Under the pieces are notes generated by a model, which saw only the letters and a program-made list of their open reading frames with translations, was not told where the DNA came from and made no database searches. A DNA stretch of 64,000 nucleotides from Archivesica marissinica (taxonomy: Eukaryota; Mollusca; Bivalvia; Venerida; Vesicomyidae), in assembly GCA_014843695.1 (NCBI GenBank), contig CM026403.1, positions 4,030,150-4,094,149 on the forward strand, given 5' to 3'. Position numbers and translations under genes: made by a program. Shown one piece after another: positions 3,281-59,490 of the stretch. Every line of letters starts with the position of its first letter. Positions within the stretch are counted from its first letter, which is position 1.

Positions 3281-3567
3281 TGGTTTACGTTTATTTATCG
3301 TCGCTACCGGTTGCCCTGAGCGACGCCTCCTGAAGAGATTAGTAATTTTAGATTTTTGGAGGATAGTGCAATGATACAGACAGAGACCCAATACAGAGTC
3401 TCCTCTGATTCTTTTACGTGCACGGTGCACAACACTGACACGAAACCTCGGTTTAAAGTCCCATCTGAAAGACTGTTAATTTTATTAGGGTCAGACGGGG
3501 GATCGATCCTGCGGTACCTGGATTACCAGTCCAACATGTTACCACTGAACTACAGATCCGCCTGTCT
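3281..3567 (-). mobile_element. SINE family C copy 1 (tRNA-derived)
   Basis: On the - strand the head reads as a tRNA-like sequence with anticodon-arm-like TGGACTGGTAATCCA and a B box GATCGATCCCCC. The body includes TTTCAGATGGGACTTTAAAC and a short inverted repeat (GTCGCT/AGCGAC), and the tail is GATAAATAAACGTAAAAC. Seven copies are present in the window; this one is mildly diverged. Confidence 0.88.
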
Positions 3568-14929: not shown

Positions 14930-15020
14930 ATGAAACGTGTACTTGTAAGAAAGCGACATGCAACTGTTATAATGCAATTCATGATGCAAGTTGGACTCTA
15001 TTGTTTTCTCGTAATTACAG
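14930..15020 (+). CDS. C1GALT1: C1GALT1-like exon 1 (signal anchor)
   Basis: ATG at 14930, preceded by in-frame TGA. It encodes 30 residues beginning MKRVLVRKRH and continuing into a hydrophobic run ending FLVIT, and leaves one base over. The donor is ACAG/GTAAGT at 15020/15021, a strong consensus. The spare G joins GT at the start of exon 2 to give Gly31. The exon is supported by signal-anchor composition and phase, not by similarity, since this part is poorly conserved in the family. Confidence 0.72.
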
Positions 15021-18000
15021 GTAAGTTGAGTTATATAGTTCTTTAGTTCTCAATGGTTAGTTAATTGGCATCCATACATCTTTAGTTCTCAATGGTAAGT
15101 TAATTGACCTCTATACGTCTTTAGTTCTCAATGGTAAGTTAATTGACCTCTATACGTCTTTAGTTCTCAATGGTAAGTTAATTGGCCTCCATACATCTTT
15201 TAGTTCTCAATGGTAAATTAATTGACCGCTATACGTCTTTAGTTCTCAATGGTAAGTTAATGGGCCTCCATACGTCTTTAGTTCTCAATGGTAAGTTAAT
15301 TGACCTATATACGTCTTTAGTTCTCAATGGTAAGTTAATGGGCCTCCATACGTCTTTAGTTCTCAATGGTAAGTTAATTGGCCTCTATACATCTTTAGTT
15401 CTCAATGGTTAGTTAATTGGCCTCTATACGTCTTTAGTTTTTAATGGTAAGTTAATTGGCCTCTATACATCTTTAGTTCTCAATGGTTAGTTAATTGGCC
15501 TATATACGTCTTTAGTTCCCAATGGTAAGTTAATGGACCTCTATACGTCTTTAGTTCTCAATGGTAAGTTAATTGGCCTCTATACGTCTTTAGTTCTCAA
15601 TGGTAAGTTGATTGGCCTCTATACGTCTTTATGTTGCTGAGAGTGTTGCAATCTGTATCACACCCTGTAGAGTGTTGTCAATCTGTATCATACTCTGTAA
15701 GAGTGTTGTCAATCTGTTTCATACCCTGTAAGGCTGAGAGTGTTGTCAATCTGTATCATGCCCTGTAAGGGTGTTGTCAATCTGTATCATGCCCTGTAAG
15801 GCTGAGAGTGTTGTCAATCTGTATTATGCCCTGTAAGGCTGAGAGTGTTGTCAATCTGTATCATGCCCTGTAAGGGTGTTGTCAATCTGTATCATGCCCT
15901 GTAAGGCTGAGAGTGTTGTGATCTGTATCATGCCCTGTAAGGGTGTTGTCAATCTGTATTATGCCCTGTAAGGCTGAGAGTGTTGTCAATCTGTATCATG
16001 CCCTGTAAGGTCTGTGCCTGCAGTATTGCTCTGAGGGGCACCCGGGGTCTTCCTCCACCATTAACAACTGTAGAGTTGCCGTATGAGCTGTTGGTACGAC
16101 TTTAAACACAAGAAATAAACTATTGATACTATATTGTATATGCTTTATATTTTGTGTAGGAAGTGTTCGCCATAACAAACTTATCATCTGATCTGGCCAC
16201 CCACCTGACCTTGTCTACGGACTTTGGTCTCAATGAGTCAACCACTGAAGCCAGCTGTGATCTACTAGCAACTACCGATATGGCACAACTCTCGATGGAG
16301 ATTGAGAAAGAGAGGTAATGTCACAGGTTACGATGGTCAATTAATAATAATGTAAACTAGCTAATTAGTGATGACGGGTCACAAATCTATACCTGTATTT
16401 ATATACAAAGCATCTGAGTGGTTATGGTCGTGGAAGTTTGTGTGCCGCCGCTTATCCGTGACCGGTTGGTTACCGTTGTGGACTTCAAATCACTTGTTCC
16501 TTCGCTTGTAGGTTCGAATCCCACTAGGGGTGTTGAATTATTTCAAGTGAGGAAGCTTATAGAAGGTTGGTGGTTCTACCCAGCTCCCGTCCGTTCCTGC
16601 AACAGTAATAGCCGGAGAGTAGGCATATTCCTGCACTACTGTTGGATCCGGGTCTTCCTCCAACAGTAATAGCCGGAGAGTAGGCATATTCCTGCACTAC
16701 TGTTGGATCCGGGTCTTCCTCCAACAGTAATAGCCGGAGAGCTCCCGTCCGTTCCTGCACTACTGTTGGATCCGGGTCTTCCTCCAACAGTAATAGCCGG
16801 AGAGCTCCCGTCCGTTCCTGCACTACTGTTGGATCCGGGTCTTCCTCCAACAGTAATAGCCGGAGAGCTCCCGTCCGTTCCTGCACTACTGTTGGATCCG
16901 GGTCTTCCTCCAACAGTAATAGCCGGAGAGTAGGCATATTACATATTAAACTGTTTGTGTGACATTAATTCCATCCAAAAACAAACAAACTTGATTTATG
17001 CAAATTTATTTTCACTCAATCATTTCCGTACAACTTTAGACTAATCATTGTGGAGCCTCCGTGGTGTAATGTATACGATATCCACCTTTCAATCTAGAGG
17101 TTTTGAGATCAACTCTATTTATATACAAATTTAGCTTAGCTCCATTGCAAAACAAGTTGTTACAAGTTTCACTGTGAGTGAAGAGGCAACATTGAATTTA
17201 AATGTCTTGCCTAAGAGCACAATCCTAACTGCTCCAGCCGGGCTCGAACACCGGGCCTTTCGCACCGGAAGCGAACGCGCTGCCACTGCTTATGTGAAGT
17301 TGCTATTTGTAACTTAACCTCCTTTTATGGTTATTTATTTGTAAAATACTGATAGCATTGTAATTGATGGTTTAATACACAGACATAAATTTGCATATGA
17401 ATTATATTTATATACAGTNNNNNNNNNNNNNNNNNNNNNNNNNNNNNNNNNNNNNNNNNNNNNNNNNNNNNNNNNNNNNNNNNNNNNNNNNNNNNNNNNN
17501 NNNNNNNNNNNNNNNNNNNNNNNNNNNNNNNNNNNNNNNNNNNNNNNNNNNNNNNNNNNNNNNNNNNNNNNNNNNNNNNNNNNNNNNNNNNNNNNNNNNN
17601 NNNNNNNNNNNNNNNNNNNNNNNNNNNNNNNNNNNNNNNNNNNNNNNNNNNNNNNNNNNNNNNNNNNNNNNNNNNNNNNNNNNNNNNNNNNNNNNNNNNN
17701 NNNNNNNNNNNNNNNNNNNNNNNNNNNNNNNNNNNNNNNNNNNNNNNNNNNNNNNNNNNNNNNNNNNNNNNNNNNNNNNNNNNNNNNNNNNNNNNNNNNN
17801 NNNNNNNNNNNNNNNNNNNNNNNNNNNNNNNNNNNNNNNNNNNNNNNNNNNNNNNNNNNNNNNNNNNNNNNNNNNNNNNNNNNNNNNNNNNNNNNNNNNN
17901 NNNNNNNNNNNNNNNNNNNNNNNNNNNNNNNNNNNNNNNNNNNNNNNNNNNNNNNNNNNNNNNNNNNNNNNNNNNNNNNNNNNNNNNNNNNNNNNNNNNN

Positions 18001-21000
18001 NNNNNNNNNNNNNNNNNNNNNNNNNNNNNNNNNNNNNNNNNNNNNNNNNNNNNNNNNNNNNNNNNNNNNNNNNNNNNNNNNNNNNNNNNNNNNNNNNNNN
18101 NNNNNNNNNNNNNNNNNNNNNNNNNNNNNNNNNNNNNNNNNNNNNNNNNNNNNNNNNNNNNNNNNNNNNNNNNNNNNNNNNNNNNNNNNNNNNNNNNNNN
18201 NNNNNNNNNNNNNNNNNNNNNNNNNNNNNNNNNNNNNNNNNNNNNNNNNNNNNNNNNNNNNNNNNNNNNNNNNNNNNNNNNNNNNNNNNNNNNNNNNNNN
18301 NNNNNNNNNNNNNNNNNNNNNNNNNNNNNNNNNNNNNNNNNNNNNNNNNNNNNNNNNNNNNNNNNNNNNNNNNNNNNNNNNNNNNNNNNNNNNNNNNNNN
18401 NNNNNNNNNNNNNNNNNNCATTGGCTACCAGTTCAAGAAAGAATAAAGTATAAAATACTGACTCACACATATAAAGCATTGAATGGAGAAGCACCGATTT
18501 ATATGAGAAACTTGCTTGAGGTTTATATACCAAGGAGAGACTTACGGTCTAAAAATGAAGCAGCTACTCTTGTGTTACCAAGAAGTCGGACTATCAAATA
18601 CGGAGATAGAAGTTTCATGACTGCTGCCCAAAACTTTGGAATTCTCTTCCATCAAATCTTAGAAGTGCAACAACATTGTGTTCTTTCAAAAAGGCTTTGA
18701 AGACACACCTTTACTGTGTCTGTGCTCAATCAGGATTAAGACTGCAAATGAACACATTTTATTTAATTATTACCTATATTTTAATTGTTATAATTTTAGA
18801 TCCGAATATTTTATAGCATATTTAGAATCCATTGTAATTGTGTTTGCTATTTTTGTCTTGTTTTATCTCATTGTATGTGGACGTTTTTATCAATATTTGT
18901 GATATTTAGGCTGTAAAGCGCTTTTGAACGTTTTATTTTTAGATGAAAAGAGCGCTATATAAGTTTGGTGTATAATAATAATAATAATGGTAAGTTAATT
19001 GGCCTCCATACGTCTTTAGTTCCCAATGGTTAGTTAATTGGCCTATATACGTCTTTAGTTCTCGATGGTAAGTTAATTGGCCTCCATACATCTTTAGTTC
19101 CCAATGGTTTGTTAATTGGCCTCTATACGTCTTTAGTTCTCAATGGTAAGTTAATTGGCCTCCATACATCTTTAGTTCCCATGGTTAGTTAATTGGCCTC
19201 TATGCGTCTTTAGTTCCCAATGGTTAGTTAATTGGCCTCTATACGTCTTTAGTTCTCAATGGTAAGTTAATTGGCCTCTATACGTCTTTAGTTCTCAATG
19301 GTAAGTTAATTGGCCTCTATACGTCTTTAGTTCTCAATGGTAAGTTAATTGGCCTCTATACGTCTTTAGTTCTCAATGGTAAGTTAATGAGCCTCTATAC
19401 GTCTTTAGTTCTCAATGGTAAGTTAATTGGCCTCCATACATCTTTAGTTCCTAATGGTTAGTTAATTGGCCTCTATACGTCTTTAGTTCTCAATGGTAAG
19501 TTAATTGGCCTCTATATGTCTTTAGTTCTCAATGGTAAGTTAATTGGCCTCTATACGTCTTTAGTTCTCAATGGTAAGTTAATGAGCCTCTATACGTCTT
19601 TAGTTCTCAATGGTAAGTTAATTGGCCTCCATACATTTTTAGTTCCCAATGGTTAGTTAATTGGCCTCTATACGTCTTTAGTTCTCAATGGTAAGTTAAT
19701 TGGCCTCTATACATCTTTAGTTCTCAATGGTAAGTTAATTGGCCTCTATACGTCTTTAGTTCTCAATGGTAAGTTAATTGGCCTCTATACGTCTTTAGTT
19801 CTCAATGGTAAGTTAATTGGCCTCTATACGTCTTTAGTTCTCAATGGTAAGTTAATGAGCCTCTATACGTCTTTAGTTCTCAATGGTAAGTTAATTGACC
19901 TCTATACGTCTTTAGTTCTCAATGGTAAGTTAATTGACCTCTATACGTCTTTAGTTCTCAATGGTAAGTTAATTGGCCTCTATACGTCTTTAGTTCTCAA
20001 TGGTAAGTTAATTGACCTCTATACGTCTTTAGTTCTCAATGGTAAGTTAATTGACCTCTATACGTCTTTAGTTCTCAATGGTAAGTTAATTGACCTCTAT
20101 ACGTCTTTAGTTCTCAATGGTAAGTTAATTGACCTCTATACGTCTTTAGTTCTCAATGGTAAGTTAATTGACCTCTATACGTCTTTAGTTCTCAATGGTA
20201 AGTTAATGGGCCTCTATACGTCTTTAGTTCTCAATGGTAAGTTAATTGACCTCTATACGTCTTTAGTTCTCAATGGTAAGTTAATTGACCTCTATACGTC
20301 TTTAGTTCTCAATGGTAAGTTAATGGGCCTCTATACGTCTTTAGTTCCCAATGGTAAGTTAATTGGCCTCTATACGTCTTTAGTTCCCAATGGTAAGTTA
20401 ATTTGCCTCTATACGTCTTTAGTTCTTTTAATTTGCCTCTATACGTCTTTAGTTCTCAATGGTAAGTTAATGGGCCTCTATACGTCTTTAGTTCCCAATG
20501 GTAAGTTAATTGGCCTCTATACGTCTTTAGTTCCCAATGGTAAGTTAATGAGCCTCTATACGTCTTTCGTTCTCAATGGTAAGTTAATTGACCTCTATAC
20601 GTCTTTAGTTCCCAATGGTAAGTTAATTGGCCTCTATACGTCTTTAGTTCCCAATGGTAAGTTAATTTGCCTCTATACGTCTTTAGTTCCCAATGGTAAG
20701 TTAATTGGCCTCTATACGTCTTTAGTTCCCAATGGTAAGTTAATTTGCCTCTATACGTCTTTAGTTCTTTTAATTGGCCTCTGTACGTCTTTCGTTCTCA
20801 ATGGTAAGTTAATGGGCCTCTATACGTCTTTCGTTCTCAATGGTAAGTTAATTGACCTCTATACATCTTTAGTTCTCAAAAGTAAGTTAATGGGCCTCTA
20901 TACGTCTTTAGTTCCTTTAGTTGGCCTCTATACGCCTTTAATTCCTTTAATTGGCCTCTATACGCCTTTAATTCCTTTAGTTGGCCTCTATACGCCTTTA

Positions 21001-24000
21001 ATTCCTTTAGTTGGCCTCTATACGCCTTTAATTCTTTTAATTGGCCTCTATACGCCTTTAATTCCTTTAATTGGCCTCTATATGCCTTTAATTCCTTTAG
21101 TTGGCCTCTATACGCCTTTAATTCCTTTAGTTGGCCTCTATACGCCTTTAATTCCTTTAATTGGCCTCTATACGTCTTTAGTTCCCAATGGTAAAGTTAA
21201 TTGGCCTCTATACGTCTTTAGTTCCCAATGGTAAAGTTAATTGATCTCTATACGTCTTTAGTTCTCAATGGTAAGTTAATTGGCCTCTATTCGTCTTTAG
21301 TTCCCAATGGTAAAGTTAATTGGCCTCCTTACGTCTTTAGTTCTCAATGGTAAGTTAATTGGCCTCCATACGTCTTTAGTTCTCAATGGTACGTTTATTG
21401 GCCTCCATACGTCTTTAATTCTCAATGGTAAGTGAATTGGCCTCCATACGTCTTTAGTTCTCAATTGTACGTTTATTGGCCTCCATACGTCTTTAGTTCT
21501 CAATGGTAAGTGAATTGGCCTCTATACGTCTTTAGTTCTCAATGGTTTTAGTTCGTCATTGGCTACCAGTTCAAGAAAGAATAAAGTATAAAATACTGAC
21601 TCACTCATATAAAGCATTGAATGTAGAAGCACCGATTTATATAAGAAACTTGCTTGAGGTTTATATACGAAGGAGAGACTTACGGTCTAAAAATGAAGCA
21701 GCTAATCTTGTGTTACCAAGAAGTCGGACTGTCACATACGGAGATAGAAGTTTCATGACTGCTGCCCCAAAACTTTGGAATTCTCTTCCATCAAATCTTA
21801 GAAGTGCAACAACATTGTGTTCTTTCAAAAAGGCTTTGAAGACACACCTTTTTAAATGTTCGTATGGAACATAAATATTGAATTGTGTCTGTGCTCAATC
21901 AGGATTAAGACTGCAAATGAACATATTTTATTTAATTATTACCTATAATTATTTTAATTGTTATAATTTTAGATCCGAATATTTTATAGCATATTTAGAA
22001 TCCATTGTAATTGTGTTTGCTATTTTTGTCTTGTTTGATCTCATTGTATGTGGACGTTTTTATCAATATTTGTGAATTTTAGGCTGTAAAACGCTTTTGA
22101 ACGTTTTATTTTTAGACGAAAAGAGCGCTATATAAGTTTGGTGTATAATAATAATAATAATGGTAAGTTAATTGGCCTCCATACGTCTTTAGTTCCCAAT
22201 GGTTAGTTAATTGGCCTATATACGTCTTTAGTTCTCGATGGTAAGTTAATTGGCCTCCATACATCTTTAGTTCCCAATGGTTAGTTAATTGGCCTCTATA
22301 CGTCTTTAGTTCTCAATGGTAAGTTAATTGGCCTCCATACATCTTTAGTTCCCAATGGTTAGTTAATTGGCCTCTATACGTCTTTAGTTCCCAATGGTTA
22401 GTTAATTGGCCTCTATACGTCTTTAGTTCTCAATGGTAAGTTAATTGGCCTCTATACGTCTTTAGTTCTCAATGGTAAGTTAATTGGCCTCTATACGTCT
22501 TTAGTTCTCAATGGTAAGTTAATTGGCCTCTATACGTCTTTAGTTCTCAATGGTAAGTTAATGAGCCTCTATACGTCTTTAGTTCTCAATGGTAAGTTAA
22601 TTGGCCTCCATACATCTTTAGTTCCTAATGGTTAGTTAATTGGCCTCTATACGTCTTTAGTTCTCAATGGTAAGTTAATTGGCCTCTATATGTCTTTAGT
22701 TCTCAATGGTAAGTTAATTGGCCTCTATACGTCTTTAGTTCTCAATGGTAAGTTAATGAGCCTCTATACGTCTTTAGTTCTCAATGGTAAGTTAATTGGC
22801 CTCCATACATTTTTAGTTCCCAATGGTTAGTTAATTGGCCTCTATACGTCTTTAGTTCTCAATGGTAAGTTAATTGGCCTCCATACATCTTTAGTTCCCA
22901 ATGGTTAGTTAATTGGCCTCTATACGTCTTTAGTTCTCAATGGTAAGTTAATTGGCCTCTATACGTCTTTAGTTCTCAATGGTAAGTTAATTGGCCTCTA
23001 TACGTCTTTAGTTCTCAATGGTAAGTTAATGAGCCTCTATACGTCTTTAGTTCTCAATGGTAAGTTAATTGGCCTCCATACATTTTTAGTTCCCAATGGT
23101 TAGTTAATTGGCCTCTATACGTCTTTAGTTCTCAATGGTAAGTTAATTGGCCTCTATACGTCTTTAGTTCTCAATGGTAAGTTAATTGACCTCTATACGT
23201 CTTTAGTTCTCAATGGTAAGTTAATGGGCCTCTATACGTCTTTAGTTCTCAATGGTAAGTTAATTGACCTCTATACGTCTTTAGTTCTCAATGGTAAGTT
23301 AATTGACCTCTATACGTCTTTAGTTCTCAATGGTAAGTTAATGGGCCTCTATACGTCTTTAGTTCTCAATGGTAAGTTAATTGACCTCTATACGTCTTTA
23401 GTTCTCAATGGTAAGTTAATTGACCTCTATACGTCTTTAGTTCTCAATGGTAAGTTAATGGGCCTCTATACGTCTTTAGTTCCCAATGGTAAGTTAATTG
23501 GCCTCTATACGTCTTTAGTTCCCAATGGTAAGTTAATTTGCCTCTATACGTCTTTAGTTCTTTTAATTTGCCTCTATACGTCTTTAGTTCTCAATGGTAA
23601 GTTAATGGGCCTCTATACGTCTTTAGTTCCCAATGGTAAGTTAATTGGCCTCTATACGTCTTTAGTTCCCAATGGTAAGTTAATGAGCCTCTATACGTCT
23701 TTCGTTCTCAATGGTAAGTTAATTGACCTCTATACGTCTTTAGTTCCCAATGGTAAGTTAATTGGCCTCTATACGTCTTTAGTTCCCAATGGTAAGTTAA
23801 TTTGCCTCTATACGTCTTTAGTTCTTTTAATTGGCCTCTGTACGTCTTTCGTTCTCAATGGTAAGTTAATGGGCCTCTATACGTCTTTCGTTCTCAATGG
23901 TAAGTTAATTGACCTCTATACATCTTTAGTTCTCAAAAGTAAGTTAATGGGCCTCTATACGTCTTTAGTTCCTTTAGTTGGCCTCTATACGCCTTTAATT

Positions 24001-27000
24001 CCTTTAATTGGCCTCTATACGCCTTTAATTCCTTTAGTTGGCCTCTATACGCCTTTAATTCCTTTAGTTGGCCTCTATACGCCTTTAATTCTTTTAATTG
24101 GCCTCTATACGCCTTTAATTCCTTTAATTGGCCTCTATATGCCTTTAATTCCTTTAGTTGGCCTCTATACGCCTTTAATTCCTTTAGTTGGCCTCTATAC
24201 GCCTTTAATTCCTTTAATTGGCCTCTATACGTCTTTAGTTCCCAATGGTAAAGTTAATTGGCCTCTATACGTCTTTAGTTCCCAATGGTAAAGTTAATTG
24301 ATCTCTATACGTCTTTAGTTCTCAATGGTAAGTTAATTGGCCTCTATTCGTCTTTAGTTCCCAATGGTAAAGTTAATTGGCCTCCTTACGTCTTTAGTTC
24401 TCAATGGTAAGTTAATTGGCCTCCATACGTCTTTAGTTCTCAATGGTACGTTTATTGGCCTCCATACGTCTTTAATTCTCAATGGTAAGTGAATTGGCCT
24501 CCATACGTCGTTAGTTCTCAATTGTACGTTTATTGGCCTCCATACGTCTTTAGTTCTCAATGGTAAGTGAATTGGCCTCTATACGTCTTTAGTTCTCAAT
24601 GGTTTTAGTTCGTCATTGGCTACCAGTTCAAGAAAGAATAAAGTATAAAATACTGACTCACTCATATAAAGCATTGAATGTAGAAGCACCGATTTATATA
24701 AGAAACTTGCTTGAGGTTTATATACGAAGGAGAGACTTACGGTCTAAAAATGAAGCAGCTAATCTTGTGTTACCAAGAAGTCGGACTGTCACATACGGAG
24801 ATAGAAGTTTCATGACTGCTGCCCCAAAACTTTGGAATTCTCTTCCATCAAATCTTAGAAGTGCAACAACATTGTGTTCTTTCAAAAAGGCTTTGAAGAC
24901 ACACCTTTTTAAATGTTCGTATGGAACATAAATATTGAATTGTGTCTGTGCTCAATCAGGATTAAGACTGCAAATGAACATATTTTATTTAATTATTACC
25001 TATAATTATTTTAATTGTTATAATTTTAGATCCGAATATTTTATAGCATATTTAGAATCCATTGTAATTGTGTTTGCTATTTTTGTCTTGTTTGATCTCA
25101 TTGTATGTGGACGTTTTTATCAATATTTGTGAATTTTAGGCTGTAAAACGCTTTTGAACGTTTTATTTTTAGACGAAAAGAGCGCTATATAAGTTTGGTG
25201 TATAATAATAATAATAATGGTAAGTTAATTGGCCTCCATACGTCTTTAGTTATTTTAGTTGGCCTCCATACGTCTTTAGTTCTCAATGGTAAGTTAATGA
25301 GCCTCTATACGTCTTTAGTTCTCAATGGTAAGTTAATTGGCCTCCATACATCTTTAGTTCCCAATGGTTAGTTAATTGGCCTCTATACGTCTTTAGTTCT
25401 CAATGGTAAGTTAATTGGCCTCTATACGTCTTTAGTTCTCAATGGTAAGTTAATTGGCCTCTATACGTCTTTAGTTCTCAATGGTAAGTTAATGAGTCTC
25501 TATACGTCTTTAGTTCTCAATGGTAAGTTAATTGGCCTCCATACATTTTTAGTTCCCAATGGTTAGTTAATTGGCCTCTATACGTCTTTAGTTCTCAATG
25601 GTAAGTTAATTGGCCTCCATACATCTTTAGTTCCCAATGGTTAGTTAATTGGCCTCTATACGTCTTTAGTTCTCAATGGTAAGTTAATTGGCCTCTATAC
25701 GTCTTTAGTTCTCAATGGTAAGTTAATTGGCCTCTATACGTCTTTAGTTCTCAATGGTAAGTTAATTGGCCTCTATACGTCTTTAGTTCTTTTAATTGGC
25801 CTCTGTACGTCTTTCGTTCTCAATGGTAAGTTAATGGGCCTCTATACGTCTTTCGTTCTCAATGGTAAGTTAATTGACCTCTATACATCTTTAGTTCTCA
25901 AAAGTAAGTTAATGGGCCTCTATACGTCTTTAGTTCCTTTAGTTGGCCTCTATACGCCTTTAATTCCTTTAATTGGCCTCTATCCGCCTTTAATTCCTTT
26001 AGTTGGCCTCTATACGCCTTTAATTCCTTTAGTTAGCCTCTATACGCCTTTAATTCTTTTAATGGGCCTCTATACGTCTTTAGTTCCTTTAGTTGGCCTC
26101 TATACGCCTTTAATTCCTTTAATTGGCCTCTATACGCCTTTAATTCCTTTAGTTGGCCTCTATACGCCTTTAATTCCTTTAGTTGGCCTCTATACGCCTT
26201 TAATTCTTTTAATTGACCTCTATACGTCTTTAGTTCTCAATGGTAAGTTAATTGACCTCTATACGTCTTTAGTTATTTTAGTTGGCCTCCATACGTCTTT
26301 AGTTCTCAATGGTAAGTTAATGGGCCTCTATACGTCTTTAGTTCTCAATGGTAAGTTAATTGACCTCTATACGTCTTTAGTTCTCAATGGTAAGTTAATT
26401 GGCCCCTATACGTCTTTAGTTCTCAATGGTAAGTTAATTAACCTCTATATGTCTTTCGTTCTCAATGGTTAGTTAATTGGCCTCTATACGTCTTTAGTTC
26501 TCCATGGTAAGTTAATTGGCCTCTATACGTCTTTAGTTCTCAATGGTAAGTTAATTGGCCTCTATACGTCTTTAGTTGTTTTAGTTGGCCTCTATACGTT
26601 TTTAGTTCTCAATGGTAAGTTAATTGGCCTCTATACGTCTTTAGTTCCCAATGGTAAGTTAATTGGCCTCTATACGTTTTTAGTTCTCAATGGTAAGTTT
26701 ATTGGAGCAGGAGCATTAGGTGCTTGATGCGTGCTGTGAAGCAGGAGCATTAGGTCATCGATGCGTGCTGTGAAACATGAGCATTAGGTCCTCGATGCGT
26801 GCTGTGAATTAGGAGCATTAGGTCATCGATGCGTGCTGTGAATCAGGAGCATTAGGTCCTCGATGGGTGCTGTGAATTAGGAGCATTAGGTCCTCGATGC
26901 GTGCTGTGAATCAGGAGCATTAGGTCCTCGATGCGTGCTGTGAATCAGGAGCATTAGGTCCTCGATGCGTGCTGTGAAACATGAGCATTAGGCCATCGAT

Positions 27001-30000: not shown

Positions 30001-33000
30001 AACGGCAAGTGATGTTTCAGCTACTAAAGATACAAGCAATATATCTGATGAGACTGCTAGATTTAAGAATCATATATCTGTGTTAGAAGTTCATAAGGCT
30101 ATTCATTCTGTAAATAAAGGCAAAGTATAGACAACATCCCTGTAGAAGTACTTATAATAAGGATGCAGTGCAGATCTTCACATTTTATTTAATATATGTT
30201 GATAATGTGGTATTGTTCGGGGGAAATGTATAATTAAGCACATACCGAAGTCGTGTACATTCGACCGAAGAGACCCGTTATCATACAGAGGTATTGCACT
30301 TGCCCTTGCAATGTATAAAGGATATTGTTCAATTTTAAGCTGCATATTAAGTATTTGGCAAATGATAAGGTCTCAGATGATCCGAATGTTTTTTAGAAAC
30401 GGATCAGATACTTGGGTGTAACTAATATAATCGATACAAGAATGAAGCTACGCTTAGTGCATTCATAGATTTTAGAAAGGCCTATGATACCATAAATAGA
30501 AGAATAGTATAGGTATATCTGGTAAAATGTTTAAAAATATTGAAACATTAATGCAGATGATTTGATGTCAAATACGGTTTACGTCAGGGGTGTATACTTT
30601 CACCTATTTTGTTTAATTTATACATAAATGACTTGTCACTTTATCTCAAAACACTTAGTATCGAATATCGAGTATCGGTATCATTATTGGGGATGAGAAC
30701 GTTTGTATTATGCTCTATGCAGATAATATTGTGTTACTAGTGGAGTCTGCTGGTGATTTACAAGTGCTATTGAATGCTTTAATTGATTTGTGTGTTCGAA
30801 ATGACATTGTCATTCCACGTACTCGGATGACAATAATATATGTATGCTTATATTTATTTCTTTGTCAGAAGGAACTAGTATTTGTTAATGGGCAAACGCA
30901 TGTATAAAGCTGAATTGCCGTAATAAACATTGAAACGTTGAAACTATCCGCCACGTGCTCTGAACTCTCTGTTTAATGGCATGGCCAATATTACACGTAG
31001 ACATTTGCTTCGCTACATACATGTATATTTATGTCTCTTTTTCGTGTATTTGCAGGTTTTCTTCTTGGATCAAAATTACCGTATAGTGACAGGGCAGATA
31101 CTATTTCCATTTATAACACCATAGCATTAGGAAAACAGGGTACGAATAGTTTACACATGTAATCACATCAGTCTGGCTTTCTGCATTGGTCAGTCAGCTC
31201 AAACTTGGCGCATACCGCTCGGACACAAGTGACCACTTTATAATTGTAATAGTCAGGTCCAGTGTCGGGTAATTCTATTGTGAAAAATATCACACACAAT
31301 CAGCTCGATGCTTTAAATGAACGACTGGAAAGTGGAATCTAGGACATACTGCAGGCTATAAATTACAGGCTTTGCTATGATCTCATACCATGCACAGTAA
31401 TGATATCCCCTGCTCTCCTCACCTCACACCGTGGATAATGGAAGACTATGCATATGCATTGGTTAACTATCATAACTATGTATCAGTGTTTACATGTTTT
31501 ATCATATTCAGGTTGAATAGACAATCCTGGAACACATTGATAAGCCTATGCATTATTTCATGGGATGTCCGATTAGAGCGCTCGCTTCTCACCAATGCAA
31601 CCCGGGTGCGATCCTCGGACCGGGAAGTATGTAAGATTGTACGGTAGTCCTCAGATCGGACAGGTGGGTTTTCTCCGGGTACTCTGGTTTCCTTTCATAC
31701 GAATGACCACATTTACGCTTTCACTCGCACCAACGAGAGTGATTAATATAAGTTGATAGAACTTGCTTCGCAATCGTTGTAAAATAAATAAAGTTTAAAC
31801 TTTAAACTAAACATTCTTTCATTCAGAACAAATCGACAGAACGAACATCAACACTATCAAAGTGCTTTGTTACGTGGTCACTTCACCAACATTTCTGTGG
31901 AAAAGAGCGATTCACGTAAAGAACACATGGGCTCAGAGGTGTGATAAAACATTGTTCTTCAGTTCTGAAAGGAGCGCTGGATTCCCAGCTATCGGGCTCA
32001 ATGCATCGGAAGGCCGGGAACACTTAACCGCCAAATCGCAGTTGGCATTTCGGTATATCTATGATAACTTCTATAATGATTATGACTGGTTCCTAAAAGC
32101 AGACGATAATACATACGTGATTGTTGAAAACCTAAAGTATTTTCTGTCATCAAAAGACAAGACTGCGCCATTTTTCTTTGGTCATCATTTCATGAGTATC
32201 ATAGACGGTGGCTATGCAAGTGGTGGCGCTGGATATGTTTTGAGTAAAGAAGCGCTCAGGCGATTGGCTGAAAAAGGACGTGATGAAGTCATGTGCAGAC
32301 AAGATGGTGGTGCAGAGGACGTTGAGATAGCTAAATGTTTGCACAATTTAGGAGTTACTGTAGGTGATTCATATGACGAAGATGGAAAAAGTGTATTCCA
32401 TTGTTTTGACCCAGCATCGCATCTTACGGGAAGTTTTCCATCCTGGTACTTCAAATTTGATGCCGCCGGCGCACAGAAGGTATGTAATGGTTTTCCATAC
32501 TCACGTGTACGTATTGTCTTTACTGAGAGATATAGGGCCTACATATAAATAACAATATCACATTAACTCTTTCAGCGCCGAATAAATTCAGAGCATGTGT
32601 AAAACAACATAGATCCAGATCAGCCGCGGCGTTTGATAAGCCGCGTCTGATCAGGATCTATGTTGTTTGCTATTCGGACATTTGCTTCAGCTCTACTGTC
32701 TGAAGAGTATTCAGTGTATAGCCTGATCAGTCAGCAAGTTCTGTTTTGTCTGATCGGGTTCTCTGATTTTTGCAGTCGCTTTTATGCGACATTGGCGGTG
32801 TAAGAGTTAAGCAAATTTATCTTACATGTTCATTCTCATATGATTTTTGTTTGCGGCAATGAAAACTAAAGAAATATTAAAGTGGAGCCGACTCAGCCAA
32901 GGGTATTCGGACACGGTTAACTGTATATTTTGCATAGTATGACTGTGTCACGTATGTGTGTGCGTAAATTATCTACACTTCCTACTGTGCATACAACTAA

Positions 33001-33198
33001 TAACTATAATTGGTTATTGCTCGCATATTACGATTCTAAGCAAACGTCACGTGGCCACACTAGTATATATTTATATTTCAGGGCAAGAGTTATATGAGTA
33101 AGAACGCTGTGTCGTTCCATTATGTGAAGCCAGAGGCCATGCATGTGTACGACTATTTCCTGTATCACGTCAAAGTACACAAACCTGACAACACTTAG
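14930..33198 (+). CDS. C1GALT1: C1GALT1-like core 1 beta-1,3-galactosyltransferase (GT31), four exons
   Basis: Joining 14930-15020, 31056-31139, 31827-32479 and 33082-33198 gives 945 nt, 314 residues plus TAG. Every junction is GT..AG and phases match (1/2, 1/2, 0/0). Layout: basic cytosolic N-terminus (about 1-13), signal anchor (about 14-36), short stem, then the GT31 domain with KNTWAQRCDK (about 90-99), FLKADDNTYV (about 147-156), GGYASGGAGYVLSKEALRRL (about 182-201), GAEDVEIAKC and the C-terminal VSFHYV. Family members transfer galactose from UDP-Gal to GalNAc-Ser/Thr in the Golgi, making core 1 (T antigen). The usual ADDDT metal site reads ADDNT, so activity is uncertain. Vertebrate C1GALT1 is about 360 residues; this is shorter mainly in the stem and C-terminus. 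Molluscan genomes often hold paralogues, so orthology is not claimed. Confidence 0.85.
15021..15632 (+). repeat. 39-bp satellite, block 1, starting at the exon 1 splice donor
   Basis: The first intron bases (GTAAGTTGAG, then CTTTAGTTCTCAATG) form a shortened 35-bp version of the satellite unit, followed by about 15 units of 39 bp. A typical unit runs GTAAGTTAATTGGCCTC, TATACGTCTTTAG, then TTCTCAATG. Most units therefore contain a 5' splice consensus (GGTAAGTTAA), with some GGTTAGTTAA variants. Because 39 is 13 codons, the frames stay open; they are not genes. Confidence 0.95.
15636..16014. repeat. Satellite array, 31/37-bp unit
   Basis: About eleven copies of a unit containing GTGTTGTCAATCTGTATCAT and GCCCTGTAAGG; some copies carry an extra CTGAGA, making 37 bp. 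It lies directly after block 1 of the 39-bp satellite, inside intron 1. Confidence 0.92.
16018..16112 (+). mobile_element. SINE family F, 3' body fragment
   Basis: Contains GGGGCACCCGGGGTCTTCCT followed by CCACCATTAACAACTG and GAGTTGCC, the body I associate with a widespread bivalve SINE. The tRNA-like head of the same kind of element is at 16430-16530. The fragment ends near GACTTTAAAC. Assignment is from memory of the family and is moderate. Confidence 0.5.
16160..16314 (+). CDS. Orphan exon-like sequence, product unknown
   Basis: A 155-bp stretch is bounded by an acceptor (TTTTGTGTAG before 16160) and a donor (GTAATG at 16315) and is fully open in one frame (phase 0 in, two bases over): it starts EVFAITNLSSDLATHL and ends AQLSMEIEKER. 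The composition looks like real protein, with no stop and an acidic, helical end. Spliced to exon 1 of the surrounding gene it would hit a stop after ten codons, so it does not belong to the main transcript. It may be an exon of a nested gene or a captured exon fragment. I do not recognise the protein. Confidence 0.45.
16430..16585 (+). mobile_element. SINE family F, 5' tRNA-like part
   Basis: A tRNA-like head (GACCGGTTGGTTACCG; B box GTAGGTTCGAATCCCACTAG) is followed by TTTCAAGTGAGGAAGC and GGTGGTTCTACCCAG. After this the element dissolves into a 63-bp tandem array. Confidence 0.65.
16586..16938. repeat. 63-bp tandem array derived from a SINE body
   Basis: About six copies containing GCACTACTGTTGGATCCGGG, TCTTCCTCCAACAGTAATAG and CCGGAGAG, with GCTCCCGTCCGTTCC or a GTAGGCATATTCC variant as linker. 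It continues directly from SINE F and its GGGTCTTCCTCCA core matches the SINE F body at 16018-16112, so the array most likely arose by duplication inside a SINE. Confidence 0.85.
17052..17112 (+). mobile_element. Possible tRNA-like SINE head fragment
   Basis: GCCTCCGTGGTGTAATG and a degraded B-box region (GAGGTTTTGAGATCAACTC) resemble a SINE head. It is short and diverged. Confidence 0.3.
17122..17292 (-). mobile_element. SINE family B copy 4
   Basis: The - strand head contains GCAGCGCGTTCGCTTCCGG and GGTGTTCGAGCCCGGCTGG, followed by GACATTTAAATTCAATGTTG. The middle of the element (the GATGGATTC block) is deleted and the tail is degraded. Confidence 0.75.
17419..18418. other. Assembly gap (1,000 N)
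   Basis: Exactly 1,000 unknown bases, a conventional fixed-size scaffold gap, so the true distance is not known. The right edge falls inside a LINE fragment whose left end should therefore lie in the gap. It is within intron 1 of the C1GALT1-like gene. Confidence 0.98.
18419..18986 (+). pseudogene. LINE 3' end, copy 1 (frameshifted)
   Basis: Encodes the C-terminal tail of a CR1/L2-like non-LTR retrotransposon protein: WLPVQERIKYKILTH, then APIYMRNLLEVYIPRRDLRS, LVLPRSRT and YGDRSFMTAA. A missing C in the run near 18628 (CTGCCC instead of CTGCCCC) shifts the frame compared with copies 2 and 3. The 3' UTR ends GCGCTATATAAGTTTGG plus a short (ATA)n tail. It runs directly into the 39-bp satellite. 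Confidence 0.8.
18987..21544 (+). repeat. 39-bp satellite, block 2
   Basis: About 65 units, mainly the 39-bp form with GGTAAGTTAA, some GGTTAGTTAA. At about 20905-21170 a 30-bp derivative (TTGGCCTCTATACGCCTTTA core) has lost the CAATGGTAAG part and therefore the donor motif. The order of variants is repeated in block 3. Confidence 0.95.
21545..22163 (+). pseudogene. LINE 3' end, copy 2 (frame intact)
   Basis: Encodes HWLPVQERIKYKILTHSY, then APIYIRNLLEVYIRRRDLRS, YGDRSFMTAAPKLWNSLP and SFKKALKTHLFKCSYGT before a TAA at 21872-21874. Sequences of the type APKLWNSLP..FKKALKTHLF are the usual C-terminus of CR1/L2-like LINE polyproteins. The open frame starts in the preceding satellite unit, so it is a 5'-truncated insertion, not a gene. 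The 3' tail has GCGCTATATAAGTTTGG and (ATA)n. Confidence 0.85.
22164..24601 (+). repeat. 39-bp satellite, block 3
   Basis: About 62 units with the same series of variants as block 2, including the stretch where TTTTAATTTGCC replaces a normal junction (about 20420 in block 2, about 23555 here) and the 30-bp derivative run at about 23965-24230. Together with LINE copy 3 it forms a 3,057-bp duplicate of the preceding DNA. Confidence 0.95.
24602..25220 (+). pseudogene. LINE 3' end, copy 3 (identical frame to copy 2)
   Basis: The same 110-codon frame as copy 2 with no amino-acid difference, at a distance of exactly 3,057 bp. It was therefore copied as part of the satellite-LINE block, not by a new retrotransposition. 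Confidence 0.85.
25221..26706 (+). repeat. 39-bp satellite, block 4
   Basis: About 38 units. The variant order agrees with blocks 2 and 3 in places, with an internal deletion. It again has a run of the 30-bp derivative (about 25930-26215). It ends where the 34-bp satellite begins, at about 26706. Confidence 0.94.
26707..29795. repeat. Satellite array, 34-bp unit
   Basis: About 90 copies of a unit containing AGGAGCATTAGGTCCTCGAT followed by GCGTGCTGTGAAAC. Variants at two positions (CTCGAT or ATCGAT; GCTGTG, GATATG or ACTGTA) are distributed in local patches, with GATATG mostly in the right half, indicating local homogenisation. A few units near 28500-28760 have GATGGTGATGTG. Confidence 0.96.
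29890..30830 (+). pseudogene. Degenerate LINE reverse transcriptase
   Basis: Recognisable pieces of a non-LTR reverse transcriptase, in several frames: a lead-in with LEVHKAIHSVNKGK (about 30090), DPLSYRGIALALAMYK (about 30270), motif A AFIDFRKAYDTINR (about 30463), motif B GLRQGCILSPILFNLY (about 30577) and motif C LYADNIVLLVES (about 30713). The catalytic YADD is YADN, and multiple stops and frameshifts break the frame. It lies in intron 1 of the C1GALT1-like gene, same strand. Confidence 0.85.
31056..31139 (+). CDS. C1GALT1: C1GALT1-like exon 2 (end of anchor and stem)
   Basis: Acceptor TGTATTTGCAG before 31056, donor GTACGA at 31140. In phase it encodes GFLLGSKLPYSDRADTIS and IYNTIALGKQ and leaves one G, which joins AA of exon 3 to give Glu59. 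FLLGSKL completes the membrane anchor of exon 1. The exon has no family similarity of its own; the case rests on splice signals, an open frame in only this phase and exact agreement with both neighbours. The donor is weak (GTACGA). Confidence 0.7.
31140..31559 (+). other. Intron 2, unique part
   Basis: No second exon or element recognised between the exon 2 donor and SINE A copy 3. Confidence 0.5.
31560..31803 (+). mobile_element. SINE family A copy 3, next to the exon 3 acceptor
   Basis: It lacks part of the A box (GATTAGAGCGCTCGCTTC), keeps a B-box-like GGGTGCGATCC and the body GGACAGGTGGGTTTTCTCCG, and ends AAATAAATAAAGTTTAAAC. The end lies only about 23 bp before exon 3, so the SINE tail may contribute to the branch-point region. 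Confidence 0.88.
31827..32479 (+). CDS. C1GALT1: C1GALT1-like exon 3 (catalytic domain)
   Basis: Acceptor TCTTTCATTCAG before 31827, donor GTATGT at 32480. It encodes residues 60-276, starting QIDRTNINTIKVLCYVVTS, with the GT31 landmarks WAQRCDK, FLKADDNTYV, SGGAGYVLSKEAL and AEDVEIAKCL. No stops or frameshifts. The third acidic residue of the DxD-type site is Asn153 (AAT at 32108-32110), one base from the usual Asp codon. Confidence 0.93.
32563..32810. mobile_element. TTAA-flanked palindromic element, type 2 (in intron 3)
   Basis: Begins TTAACTCTTTCAGCGCCG and ends, in reverse complement, TTAACTCTTACACCGCCA. An internal hairpin pairs ACATAGATCCAGATCAG with CTGATCAGGATCTATGT. Structure and ends are related to the type 1 elements at 39168, 40733, 43093, 47443 and 49248. 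No coding capacity. A piggyBac-like origin is suggested only by the TTAA. Confidence 0.75.
33082..33198 (+). CDS. C1GALT1: C1GALT1-like exon 4 (C-terminus)
   Basis: Acceptor TTTATATTTCAG before 33082. It encodes the last 38 residues: GKSYMSKNAVSFHYVKPEAM and then VYDYFLYHVKVHKPDNT, stop TAG at 33196-33198. VSFHYV and the following YxxxYLxYH-like pattern are typical of the C1GALT1 C-terminus. Confidence 0.92.
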   Translation, partial: GKSYMSKNAVSFHYVKPEAMHVYDYFLYHVKVHKPDNT

Positions 33199-35456: not shown

Positions 35457-35744
35457 ACAGACGGATCTGTAGTCCAGTGGTAACACGCTGGACTGGTAAT
35501 CCTGAGATCACAGGTTCGATCCCCCGTCTGACCCTAATAAAATTAACAGTCTTTCAGATGGGACTTTAAACCGAGGTCACGTGTCGGTGCTTTACACCGT
35601 GCACGTTAAAGAACCAGAGGAGACTCTGGAACGGGTCTCTGTATTATTGCACTATCCTCCAAAAATCTAAAATGACTAATCTCTTCAGGAGGCGTCGCTC
35701 ATATGGGCAACCGGTAGCGACGATAAATAAACGTAAAACACACA
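35457..35744 (+). mobile_element. SINE family C copy 5
   Basis: Full-length with a perfect 13-bp target duplication CTCGATTTCACAT (35444-35456 and 35745-35757). Head GTAGTCCAGTGGTAACACGC and tail GATAAATAAACGTAAAAC are intact, pointing to recent activity. Confidence 0.93.
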
Positions 35745-47989: not shown

Positions 47990-48910
47990 ACTACTCAATT
48001 CTATATTTCAGGAAGTGAAACGGGACTCAATTCTATATTTCAGGAAGTGAAACGGGACTCAATTCTATATTTCAGGAAGTGAAACGGGACTCAATTCTAT
48101 ATTTCAGGAAGTGAAACGGGACTCAATTCTACATTTCAGGAAGTGAAATGGGACTCAATTCTATATTTCAGGAAGTGAAACAGGACTCAATTCTATATTT
48201 CAGGAAGTGAAACAGGACTCAATTCTATATTTCAGGAAGTGAAACGGGACTCAATTTTATATTTCAGGAAGTGAAACGGGACTCAATTCTATATTTCAGG
48301 AAGTGAAACGGGACTCAATTCTATATTTTAGAAAGTGAAACGGGACTCAATACCATATTTCAGGAAGTGAAACAGGACTATTTCGGGAAGTGAAACGGGT
48401 CTATTTCAAGAAGTGAAACGGGACTATTTCGGGAAGTGAAACGGGACTCAATTCTATATTTTAGAAAGTGAAACGGGACTCAATACCATATTTCAGGAAG
48501 TGAAACAGCACTATTTCGGGAAGTGAAACGGGACTATTTCAATAAGTGAAACGGGACTATTTCGGGAAGTGAAATGGGACTCAATTCTATATTTCAGGAA
48601 GTGAAACGGGACTCAATTCTATATCTCAGGAAGTGAAACGGGACTCAATTCTATATTTCAGGAAGTGAAACGGGACTCAATTCTATATTTCAGGAAGTGA
48701 AACGGGACTCAATTCTATATTTCAGGAAGTGAAATGGGACTATTTCGGGAAGTGAATCGGGACTATTTCGGGAAGTGAAACAGGACTATTTCGGAAAGTG
48801 AAACGGGTCTCAATACTATTTTTCAGGAAGTGAAATGGGACTCAATTCTATATTTCAGGAAGTGAAACGGGACTCAATACTATATTTCAGGAAGTGAAAT
48901 GGGACAACTA
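47990..48910. repeat. Satellite array, 32-bp unit with 23-bp derivative
   Basis: About 30 copies containing CTCAATTCTATATTTCAGGA and AGTGAAACGGGA. A shorter derivative (CTATTTCGGGAAGTGAAACG) occurs in two clusters near 48370-48560 and 48730-48800. Diverged relatives continue to about 49075. Confidence 0.93.
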
Positions 48911-49247
48911 TATTCCAGCTTTATGGATGTGAACCTGGACGGCTCAATTCTAGACATCGGGAAATGAAACTGGACCACTCAATAACAAAGTTAGGGAAGT
49001 GAAACTGCACGACTAAATTCTATCTTTATGGAAGTGAAACTGCACGACTAAATTCTATCTTTATGGAAGTGAAAAAAGATTTATATGTTGGGTAACATTT
49101 GTCTGTCATGAAAGGCGAACAAGGGTTATAAATCATTTCACAAGCAGCTGGTTGGTTCAGCTGATAGTAAAAATTCAGAATCAGCCAATCATAGCACTTG
49201 CTCTCGAGATTTGAATACTGTTTTATAACGTCCAGGACAGATGTTCT

Positions 49248-50322: not shown

Positions 50323-50442
50323 ATGCAATTTGACATTCTGAACACCACAAAATAGCACCATCCATTCCCATGCTTTATTTTGTATACAATAATAAGTGGA
50401 TACTTGTTTGTTTCAGTGTATGATCAAATTATATATGAATAA

Positions 50443-52816: not shown

Positions 52817-52850
52817 TAAGACTTTCTATGTACGCGTTAACAACATTTCA

Positions 52851-58618: not shown

Positions 58619-59093
58619 GCTGACAACTCTCAGAGAAGACAAATTTAACATTTTTTTCAAGTAAATTAGTCAAAGGTGTAGCAAATGAAGAGAAATTTGG
58701 ACTGAATTTTCTAAAGAATCCAATAATTGCTAGAAATCTCATTAATTCTCTGTAAGCCATTTACAGGTTTTATCTGACCCACCATGACCCACCATGACCG
58801 ACAACATGGCCGACAACATGGCCTACGTATTCAACAGCAGCTTGACAAACCTCACTCTTTGATGAAGTATCATTAGAGATTACTACATCATTAATATATC
58901 CCGCTGTATCATTTAAATACGCAATCAGATGATTCAATATAAGTTGAAATGCTGCAGCAAAATGTTTCTTTTCATTACAAACGGCATGACTTTTATTGGA
59001 ATAACCCAAAGGGTGTGTAATAATAGCAAAGGATTCCTTAGTTCTGTCTGTAAATGGATGTTGCCAATAGTCTTTTATCAAATTTGCTAACAT
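58569..59093 (-). pseudogene. Broken Ty3/gypsy reverse transcriptase / RNase H fragment
   Basis: On the - strand, first a reverse-transcriptase part (LIKDYWQHPFTDRTKESFA, about 59078-59020; FQLILNHLIAYLNDTAGY and INDVVIS, about 58960-58880), where the catalytic YIDD-like motif reads YINDV; then, after loss of intervening sequence, the connection to RNase H (FLAIIGFFRKFSPNFSSFAT, PLTNLLEKNVKFVFSESCQQ). Similarity is to the pol region of gypsy-type LTR retrotransposons. No LTRs, integrase or gag are present. The 3' end runs into the 43/66-bp array. Confidence 0.85.
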
Positions 59094-59207: not shown

Positions 59208-59490
59208 GTGTGTGTTTTACGTTTATTTATCGTCGCTACCGGTTGCCCATATGAGCGACGCCTCCTAAAGAAACTAATTTTAGATTTTGGAGGATAGTGC
59301 AATGATACAGACAGAGACCCATTCCAGAGTCTCCGCTGGTTCTTTTATGTGCACGGTGTAAAGCACCGACACAAGACCTCGGTTTAATGTCCCATCTGAA
59401 AGACTGTTAATTTTATTAGGGTCAGACGGGAGATCAAACCTGCGATCCCTGGATTACCAGTTCAGCGTGTTACCACTGGACTACAGATCC
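59208..59490 (-). mobile_element. SINE family C copy 7
   Basis: Full-length on the - strand with an 11-bp target duplication AGTGCATTTCT (59197-59207 and 59491-59501). Head GATCTGTAGTCCAGTGGTAA, hairpin GTCGCT/AGCGAC and the tail are intact. Confidence 0.92.

Follow-up and report, generated by a model that had tools for sequence, protein, structure and literature searches.

Minisatellite-like tandem repeats of exon-intron boundaries, termed mirages, have been described in amphioxus in the Adh3, globin (BflGb6 and BflGb9) and troponin C genes, and PGBD5 has been likened to them (PMC3087553; PMC3902484). In the available text of these papers, the duplicated splice signals are reported without disturbed splicing, and length instability is reported as well. 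The satellite considered here, which lies in intron 1 of a C1GALT1-like gene of the bivalve Archivesica marissinica, resembles the amphioxus repeats, as far as that text describes them, in being a minisatellite-like tandem repeat at an exon-intron boundary with splice signals in many of its units. As in the available portion of the lancelet PGBD5 account, the first repeat directly abuts a 5' splice site (PMC3902484). Two features of the mirage class were found in the window (the whole stretch of 64,000 nucleotides analysed): the array contacts an exon-intron boundary, and its units carry copies of a splice signal. The reading we favour, at a probability of roughly 0.6, is that of a mirage-type minisatellite that arose by tandem duplication where exon 1 meets intron 1 and has grown to at least 8 kb.

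The C1GALT1-like gene and the layout of intron 1

The C1GALT1-like gene is intact, with four exons that join into an open spliced model of 314 aa. In protein alignments, the model is identical to the relative P0002 at 226 of 307 positions (73.6%) and to the Mactra antiquata relative P0003 at 205 of 306 (67.0%). In tblastn searches, residues 7-33 of P0003 matched 14948-15028 (56%, E 4e-5), the match extending 8 nt beyond the donor. P0002 matched 31046-31135 with its residues 28-57 (57%, E 4e-5). The parts of the gene are as follows.

14930..15020, + strand: C1GALT1-like exon 1, coding part, ending in MKRVLVRKRHATVIMQFMMQVGLYCFLVIT-G, phase 1 (tblastn with P0003; full-length model alignment to P0002 and P0003)
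15021..15026, + strand: real donor of intron 1, CAG/GTAAGT (sequence; U1 duplex -12.1 kcal/mol; gap-free exon 1/2 junction)
31056..31139, + strand: C1GALT1-like exon 2 (P0002 residues 28-57 at 57%; model)
31827..32479, + strand: C1GALT1-like exon 3, catalytic domain (Pfam Fringe, E 2.1e-14; 747 proteins at E<=0.001; model)
33082..33198, + strand: C1GALT1-like exon 4, including the stop codon (aligned to the C-termini of P0002 and P0003)

Exon 1 ends with ...ATTACAG at 15020, and GTAAGT opens the intron at 15021. Because the exon 1/2 junction is free of gaps in the alignments to both P0002 and P0003 (the latter has a 3-residue gap a few residues 3' of the junction), homology identifies 15020/15021 as the real donor. 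The P0003 tblastn match and the gap-free junction likewise support, by homology, exon 1, on which the original prediction depended. The gene's other two donors reach U1 duplex energies of -5.0 and -8.4 kcal/mol. Read-through from exon 1 ends at ...GKLSYIVL-stop, and if exon 1 were spliced at a decoy instead, an in-frame stop would follow within nine codons.

The satellite had been described as one continuous array at 15021..26706; it instead forms two blocks, with other sequence between them.

15020..15054, + strand: first, degenerate array unit with the real donor, 35 nt (in-register alignment score 43)
15021..15632, + strand: block 1 of the array, a 39-bp minisatellite parsed into 16 units, partial ones counted
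15636..16010, + strand: minisatellite of another kind, about 37/68 bp, abutting block 1 (TRF)
16160..16315, + strand: single merlin/NF2-like exon within the apparent intron 1, open, with splice-like ends (81% over 52 aa to the Ruditapes merlin-like protein P0127; coordinates taken from the protein match)
16594..16930: 63-bp array between the blocks
17419..18418: assembly gap of 1000 N
18986..26705, + strand: array block 2, 39-bp units and 30-bp variants that lack the donor, interrupted by two LINE inserts
about 21546..22158, + strand: LINE 3' fragment in block 2 with a (TAA)n tail, ends approximate
about 24603..25215, + strand: second copy of the LINE 3' fragment in block 2, ends approximate

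TRF places the start of block 1 at 15040, and the unit at 15020-15054 was added from our own alignment. Parsing yielded 192 units, 184 of them full. The original prediction, that most of some 180 later units repeat the donor in register and end in CTTTAG, is confirmed by the motif counts, with the correction that the donor segment is absent from 36 of the 184 full units and 20 carry GTTAGT. Block 1 and block 2 contain, respectively, 10 and 103 copies of GGTAAGTTAA, 12 and 111 of GTAAGT (123 in total, including the real donor), and 14 and 148 of CTTTAG. With up to three mismatches allowed, the consensus unit occurs 128 times, on the + strand only, against a shuffle mean of 0.00.

The two LINE fragments of block 2, offset by about 3.06 kb, are identical at 604 of 604 aligned nucleotides, which implies recent turnover; a third LINE 3' end lies between the N gap and block 2. 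Other searches were negative: no strong RNA structure was found over 156 nt of array (z -0.56; 59 of 200 shuffles equally stable), a 24-nt piece of the unit gave 0 matches in viral_contigs, and ARAGORN reported 0 genes.

The merlin match speaks against 16160-16315 as an exon of the C1GALT1-like gene. Apart from this exon, searches with P0127 and P0128 (tblastn, E<=5) returned only a weak match (E 2.4) in the 12-kb low-complexity array. With the merlin exon and the N gap intervening, the joining of block 1 to block 2 is doubtful. It is a real possibility, at somewhat less than even odds, that the layout is partly an assembly artefact, with 15.6-18.4 kb misjoined or the merlin piece moved in, and the array longer than drawn. 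Two observations speak for such an error: the merlin exon is the only one recognised in the window, and to the right of the gap the sequence begins 11 nt into a LINE, just beyond the point at which the two other LINE copies border the array. Against it, exon 1, its donor and block 1 share one gap-free stretch, as do block 2 and exons 2-4, so that the satellite occurs with parts of the same gene on both. An artefact of this kind would alter the layout while leaving the relation between donor and unit intact, and is compatible with the main reading.

Origin of the array

The claim that the array starts at the first intron base, with the real 5' splice site as its first unit, holds as to register; the unit itself is degenerate and, at 35 nt, falls 4 nt under consensus length. 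Aligned to the 39-bp unit, it scores 43 at rotation 0 and 33 at the next best rotation, and with GGTAAGT held fixed and only the tail shuffled, 0 of 20,000 dinucleotide shuffles reach 43. It matches 30 of 39 consensus columns, whereas the 39-type units have a mean match of 0.957 and a minimum of 0.846.

It is scarcely credible that an unrelated minisatellite abuts the exon and merely happens to contain GGTAAGTT. Tandem arrays do make up about 63% of the window, and U1 sites of 7 bp or more occur in 2 of 29 array units where 0.45 would be expected (P 0.07). However, only one of the nine known exon borders in the window adjoins an array, and one or more exact contacts would arise by chance with a probability of 0.023 (0.044 for contact within 1 nt), taking 15021 as the array edge; an independent array is rejected above all on register, which no shuffle reproduced. 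A general rule that arrays of the window carry donors was not supported with single-base shuffles, either at the 7-bp threshold or at 6 bp or more (3 of 29, P 0.22); here, 29 units stand for 31 arrays, with the two blocks merged and 58136-58622 omitted as kin of 56388. A second donor-bearing array, at 50436-52817 on the minus strand, holds 64 CAGTAAGTA[TC] sites with the same orientation as a PPIP5K2-like gene and adjoins no recognised exon.

On the exon side, only the final G of exon 1 is clearly common to the unit, which counts against the favoured reading. For exon 1 tails of 12, 15, 18, 20 and 25 nt, the score against the unit was reached by 2800, 1092, 1437, 1478 and 736 of 3000 dinucleotide shuffles, and by 2447, 178, 160, 210 and 31 of 3784 window stretches, respectively. 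The resemblance is thus rarer against window stretches than against shuffles, and the unit's TTCTCAATG is at most a candidate for a shortened derivative of the end of exon 1.

The homology-backed exon, the position of the donor where it is expected and the in-register identity together make the donor region part of the array and, as far as sequence can indicate, probably its seed. Of the proposed origin, membership in the array is upheld; as to direction, the donor may have seeded the array or been captured by it. By capture, an array seeded deeper in the intron would have spread to the exon, its own GGTAAGTT replacing or converting the original donor. Conversion would leave the same in-register GGTAAGTT in donor and units, and the array has clearly expanded and rearranged. 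Capture is nevertheless unlikely: the splice position is where the relatives predict it, the junction has no gap, and the first unit diverges more than any 39-type unit, as expected of an old edge copy.

In the favoured reading, the array was seeded when GGTAAGTT of the donor misaligned with the similar GGTTAGTT (7 of 8 positions the same) 35 nt downstream, an event that would have duplicated the first ~35-39 nt of the intron. The tandem structure suggests that the unit then expanded by slippage or unequal exchange. A LINE would subsequently have arrived in the array, and array and LINE would have been re-duplicated as ~3-kb blocks, a step supported by the identical LINE copies. The exon-side copy, CAG/GTAAGT, would have been retained by selection as the working donor, while later units, with ATG/GTAAGT, would have become decoys that pair less well with U1 and are expected to be seldom used. 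If the donor region was the seed, the array-free intron 1 of a relative would start with a single-copy GTAAGTTGAGTTATATAG...CTTTAGTTCTCAATGG.

Decoy donors and U1

As the original prediction had it, intron 1 contains well over a hundred donor-like sites in the sense strand: 119 decoys with at least 7 U1 pairs lie in the two blocks, and 122 such sites occur across intron 1, with 0 antisense in either count. Most decoys have a U1 duplex energy of -9.1 kcal/mol (117 sites at -9.1 or better; best -9.9), and all are weaker than the real donor. The common decoy nonetheless outbinds two of the gene's three donors in duplex energy. From these modelled energies, U1 snRNP could probably bind the decoys. 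The array is probably tolerated because no decoy equals the real donor in its pairing with U1.

The donor columns are unremarkable in conservation. Of the 39 circular windows of six columns, 13 are at least as conserved when ranked by units, 17 when ranked by distinct types and 31 when ranked by allele number, and selection on the donor motif is not supported by such ordinary ranks. The CTTTAG columns are somewhat above average (8 of 39 windows at least as conserved by types, 9 of 39 by units). Because the donor columns are not specially conserved and 36 full units lack the donor, there is no sign of selection for the decoys, whose number and upkeep look neutral.

Telescripting has been described in metazoans, and the available text raises the possibility that cryptic 5' splice sites contribute to it in larger introns (PMC11489095). 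On this model, the decoys would be kept since U1 bound in intron 1 would suppress premature cleavage and polyadenylation. Strong sense U1 sites in a long intron, as expected of a telescripting element, are indeed present, and both the strand bias of 122 to 0 and the strength of the common decoy relative to the gene's donors fit the model. It is improbable all the same. The sense-only bias is automatic, because the array has a single orientation; the sites do not appear to be kept by selection, given the ordinary donor columns and the units with a missing or GTTAGT donor; and the sense AATAAA/ATTAAA hexamers of block 2 are only two, both in LINE inserts, so that the array itself offers little that would need suppressing.

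Each unit could also be read as a splice ladder, CTTTAG/TTCTCAATG/GTAAGT, in which the 9 nt would serve as an in-frame micro-exon or a point of recursive splicing, for stepwise removal of the intron or for Val-Leu-Asn repeats in the protein. Both 9 nt and 39 nt are divisible by 3, the frame stays open with one or two micro-exons added, the CTTTAG columns are somewhat better conserved than average, and human UBC uses tandem splice-site arrays, according to the available text (PMC10809524). The ladder is highly improbable, however, with the VLN insertion absent at the junction in P0002 and P0003. Moreover, a GT..AG stretch of 30 nt is very short for splicing. Very improbable too is a broader version, in which the gene now uses the array as a kilobase-scale U1-binding platform, for polymerase passage through the long intron or for stepwise removal via in-frame 9-nt micro-exons; were it true, repeat number would tune glycosyltransferase expression.

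Relation to known systems

Usable splice signals within repeat units are also described in the available text on human ITRs (PMC2812944), the dual-specific sites of VCX3A and UBC (PMC10809524) and Cryptococcus CNN00420 (PMC2395259). In those cases exons or introns are altered or created in the mRNA, whereas the units recognised here lie within the apparent intron 1. An introner or mini-intron array would have its units spliced out as introns, and each unit here offers a GT..AG stretch of 30 nt for this. The repeats in intron 1 of earthworm metallothionein genes (PMC12783039) and CeRep25B of C. elegans (PMC4039745) are, like the present array, invertebrate intronic minisatellites, the latter over-represented near alternatively spliced regions. 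Unlike here, the donor of an adjoining exon is not described as part of their units in the available portions of those papers. U1 telescripting, as far as its account goes (PMC11489095), would likewise use unspliced intronic U1 sites, and is here only a possible consequence. The available text on sea bream MSTN-2 intron 1 (PMC3045353) and chicken MUC2 (PMC3549977) has no bearing on the array. Our literature search, with most subscription papers outside its scope, found no donor-seeded array in a mollusc.

From the amphioxus mirages, as described in the available text, the present array differs in its host, a bivalve gene, and in size, with about 190 units over more than 8 kb compared with 3-6 units in two BflGb6 haplotypes. 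The amphioxus globin mirages span the boundary, whereas the unit here appears to be purely intronic. The present array further differs in its LINE inserts and in the ~3-kb blocks in which array and LINE recur together.

With about 190 units, this mollusc case would show how a splice donor can become the seed of a satellite, and its intron 1 naturally holds more than a hundred decoy donors in register. The way in which the spliceosome chooses the first among many near-identical 5' splice sites could be tested on it, as could the protection of long introns by arrays of U1 sites and the feeding of intron gain by boundary minisatellites. Mirages are already known from amphioxus; what is new here is the very large size and the mollusc host, and the array is a striking example of the same kind of thing.

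The C1GALT1-like gene and its first donor

The exon-3 reading frame matched the Pfam family Fringe (E 2.1e-14) and 747 proteins at E<=0.001; among the 120 matches listed, the named proteins are mostly molluscan C1GALT1-like proteins, with two unnamed sequences and one from Mactra antiquata ranking highest. When these 120 proteins were aligned to the window, exons 1 and 2 were located.

Segments of the C1GALT1-like gene
14948-15028, exon 1 protein match (P0003, from Mactra antiquata; E 4e-5)
31046-31135, exon 2 protein match (P0002, an unnamed relative; E 4e-5)
14930-15020, 31056-31139, 31827-32479 and 33082-33198, four segments of the spliced gene model, open over 314 residues

The 314-residue model is identical to P0002 at 226/307 positions and to P0003 at 205/306. 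Its exon 1/2 junction, VITG/FLLG, aligns gaplessly with VIMG/YLLG and VVTG/YLIG in these two proteins, a 3-residue gap in the P0003 alignment lying slightly downstream. By homology, the four-exon model and the gapless junction argue that exon 1 is real, with its donor at the position predicted from relatives. The segment at 31827-32479 carries the motif ADDNTYV, as do P0001-P0003; in other matches the motif is ADDDTYV (P0004, P0007) or ADDDTYF (P0005). The gene with ADDNTYV may be a clam paralogue that has diverged from C1GALT1.

The 39-bp array and its interruptions

Read directly, the boundary at 15020/15021 is ATTACAG/GTAAGTTGAG, and the original prediction that the array starts at this donor was borne out. 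The opening unit spans 35 nt starting at 15020 and agrees with the consensus in 30 of its 39 columns, below every 39-type unit; it lies in register (score 43, the next best rotation reaching 33), and 0/20,000 shuffled tails with GGTAAGT held fixed scored as well. The array therefore includes the real exon 1 donor. Seeding of the array by the exon 1 donor region is the best explanation, and the initial observation is both real and unusual.

Tandem Repeats Finder located the array at 15040-15631 and 18986-26705, and wrap-around alignment parsed 192 units, 184 of them full; 139 of the full units have at most three gaps and fall into 45 distinct types. The anticipated total of about 180 units, mostly donor-bearing, held in number and in the exact-string counts for blocks 1 and 2 (GTAAGT, 12 + 111; GGTAAGTTAA, 10 + 103), but 36 units form a 30-bp version without the donor segment and 20 carry GTTAGT. 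Parse counts deviate slightly from exact-string counts because the parse ignores insertions.

The single continuous array envisaged at 15021..26706 does not hold: block 1 ends mid-unit at 15632, and beyond it come, in order, a minisatellite with 37-bp units, a stretch resembling an exon, an array of 63-bp units and a run of 1000 N. The stretch that resembles an exon (16160-16315) is open and, over 52 aa, 81% identical to a merlin-like protein of Ruditapes. No further merlin exon was recognised in the window with two merlin proteins at E<=5, the sole other match being weak (E 2.4) and in a low-complexity array. A merlin/NF2-like exon inside the apparent C1GALT1 intron 1 would reflect a misjoin in the assembly, transposition of the exon, or two genes that interleave.

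To the right of the 1000-N gap, the sequence resumes 11 nt into a LINE fragment; the other two copies of this fragment directly adjoin array units. The array is thus the probable point at which the assembly broke, and it is probably longer than drawn. The LINE copies at 21.5 and 24.6 kb show no difference over 604 aligned nt, and the copy at 18.4 kb shows 97.5% identity to each. Because shorter within-array offsets match nearly as well as a 4682-nt self-match (92.2% identity, offset 3056 nt), the case for a block repeat rests mainly on these copies. AATGG flanks the LINE on both sides, which fits insertion into an already existing array, but its 3' occurrence merges into the (TAA)n tail.

U1 pairing and decoy sites

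The duplex energy with the U1 5' end was -12.1 at the real donor; among the decoys (donor-like copies in later units), the best 4 sites reach -9.9 and 113 more reach -9.1. The donors of exons 2 and 3 in the same gene give -5.0 and -8.4, respectively. Apart from the real donor, 122 sense sites in intron 1 form at least 7 U1 pairs and no antisense site does; 119 of the 122 fall within the two blocks, in agreement with the more than 100 sense donor-like sites foreseen. Sense AATAAA/ATTAAA occurs twice in block 2, both times within LINE inserts, and across the whole of intron 1 there are 7 sense and 70 antisense occurrences.

Translation indicated that decoy use from exon 1 would lead to a stop within nine codons; addition of the 9-nt TTCTCAATG keeps the frame open. 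Conservation of the donor columns is unremarkable, being equalled or exceeded in 13 (units), 17 (types) or 31 (alleles) of 39 windows, and the CTTTAG columns are slightly better conserved (9/39 windows at least equal for units, 8/39 for types). We infer that the predicted decoys are tolerated, not maintained.

Arrays, exon borders and amphioxus mirages

Tandem repeats make up approximately 63% of the window (31 main arrays tallied, block 2 LINE inserts included), so abutting arrays are normal here. Several arrays directly abut, for example at 5095/5097, 26705/26708 and 62086/62096. Only one of the nine known exon borders in the window touches an array, namely the C1GALT1-like exon 1 donor; the chance of at least one such contact is P 0.023 (exact) or 0.044 (within 1 nt). 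U1 sites of at least 7 bp are present in 2/29 array units (expected 0.45, P 0.07) and of at least 6 bp in 3/29 (expected 1.64, P 0.22).

Further features of the window
50436-52817, minus strand, other array with a 7-bp U1 site (35-bp unit; 64 CAGTAAGTA[TC] donor-like sites)
3487-3559, 35463-35535 and 59418-59490, three tRNA-like segments that reach the gathering score of Rfam RF00005

The donor-like sites at 50436-52817 share the orientation of a PPIP5K2-like gene (last two exons, 44961-44770 and 43980-43457), and no contact of this array with a recognised exon was found. In a 32-bp array at 47993-49074, the unit ATATTTCAG/GAAGTG resembles a splice acceptor, with no host exon recognised for it. 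ARAGORN called no tRNA genes at the three RF00005 matches, which are probably tRNA-derived SINEs.

The closest known counterpart of the 39-bp array is the amphioxus mirage. In the Adh3, globin and troponin C genes, mirages are exon-intron boundaries duplicated in tandem in the manner of a minisatellite; they are unstable in length, and the duplicated signals reportedly leave splicing undisturbed. Similar repeats are described in PGBD5 (PMC3087553; PMC3902484). The first PGBD5 repeat lies directly against a 5' splice site, the same geometry as in the C1GALT1-like array. The 39-bp array likewise contacts an exon-intron boundary and carries splice-signal copies in its units; of exon 1 itself, the unit clearly shares only the last base. 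By this analogy, it may be filed as a very large molluscan mirage, of a kind with precedent in amphioxus.
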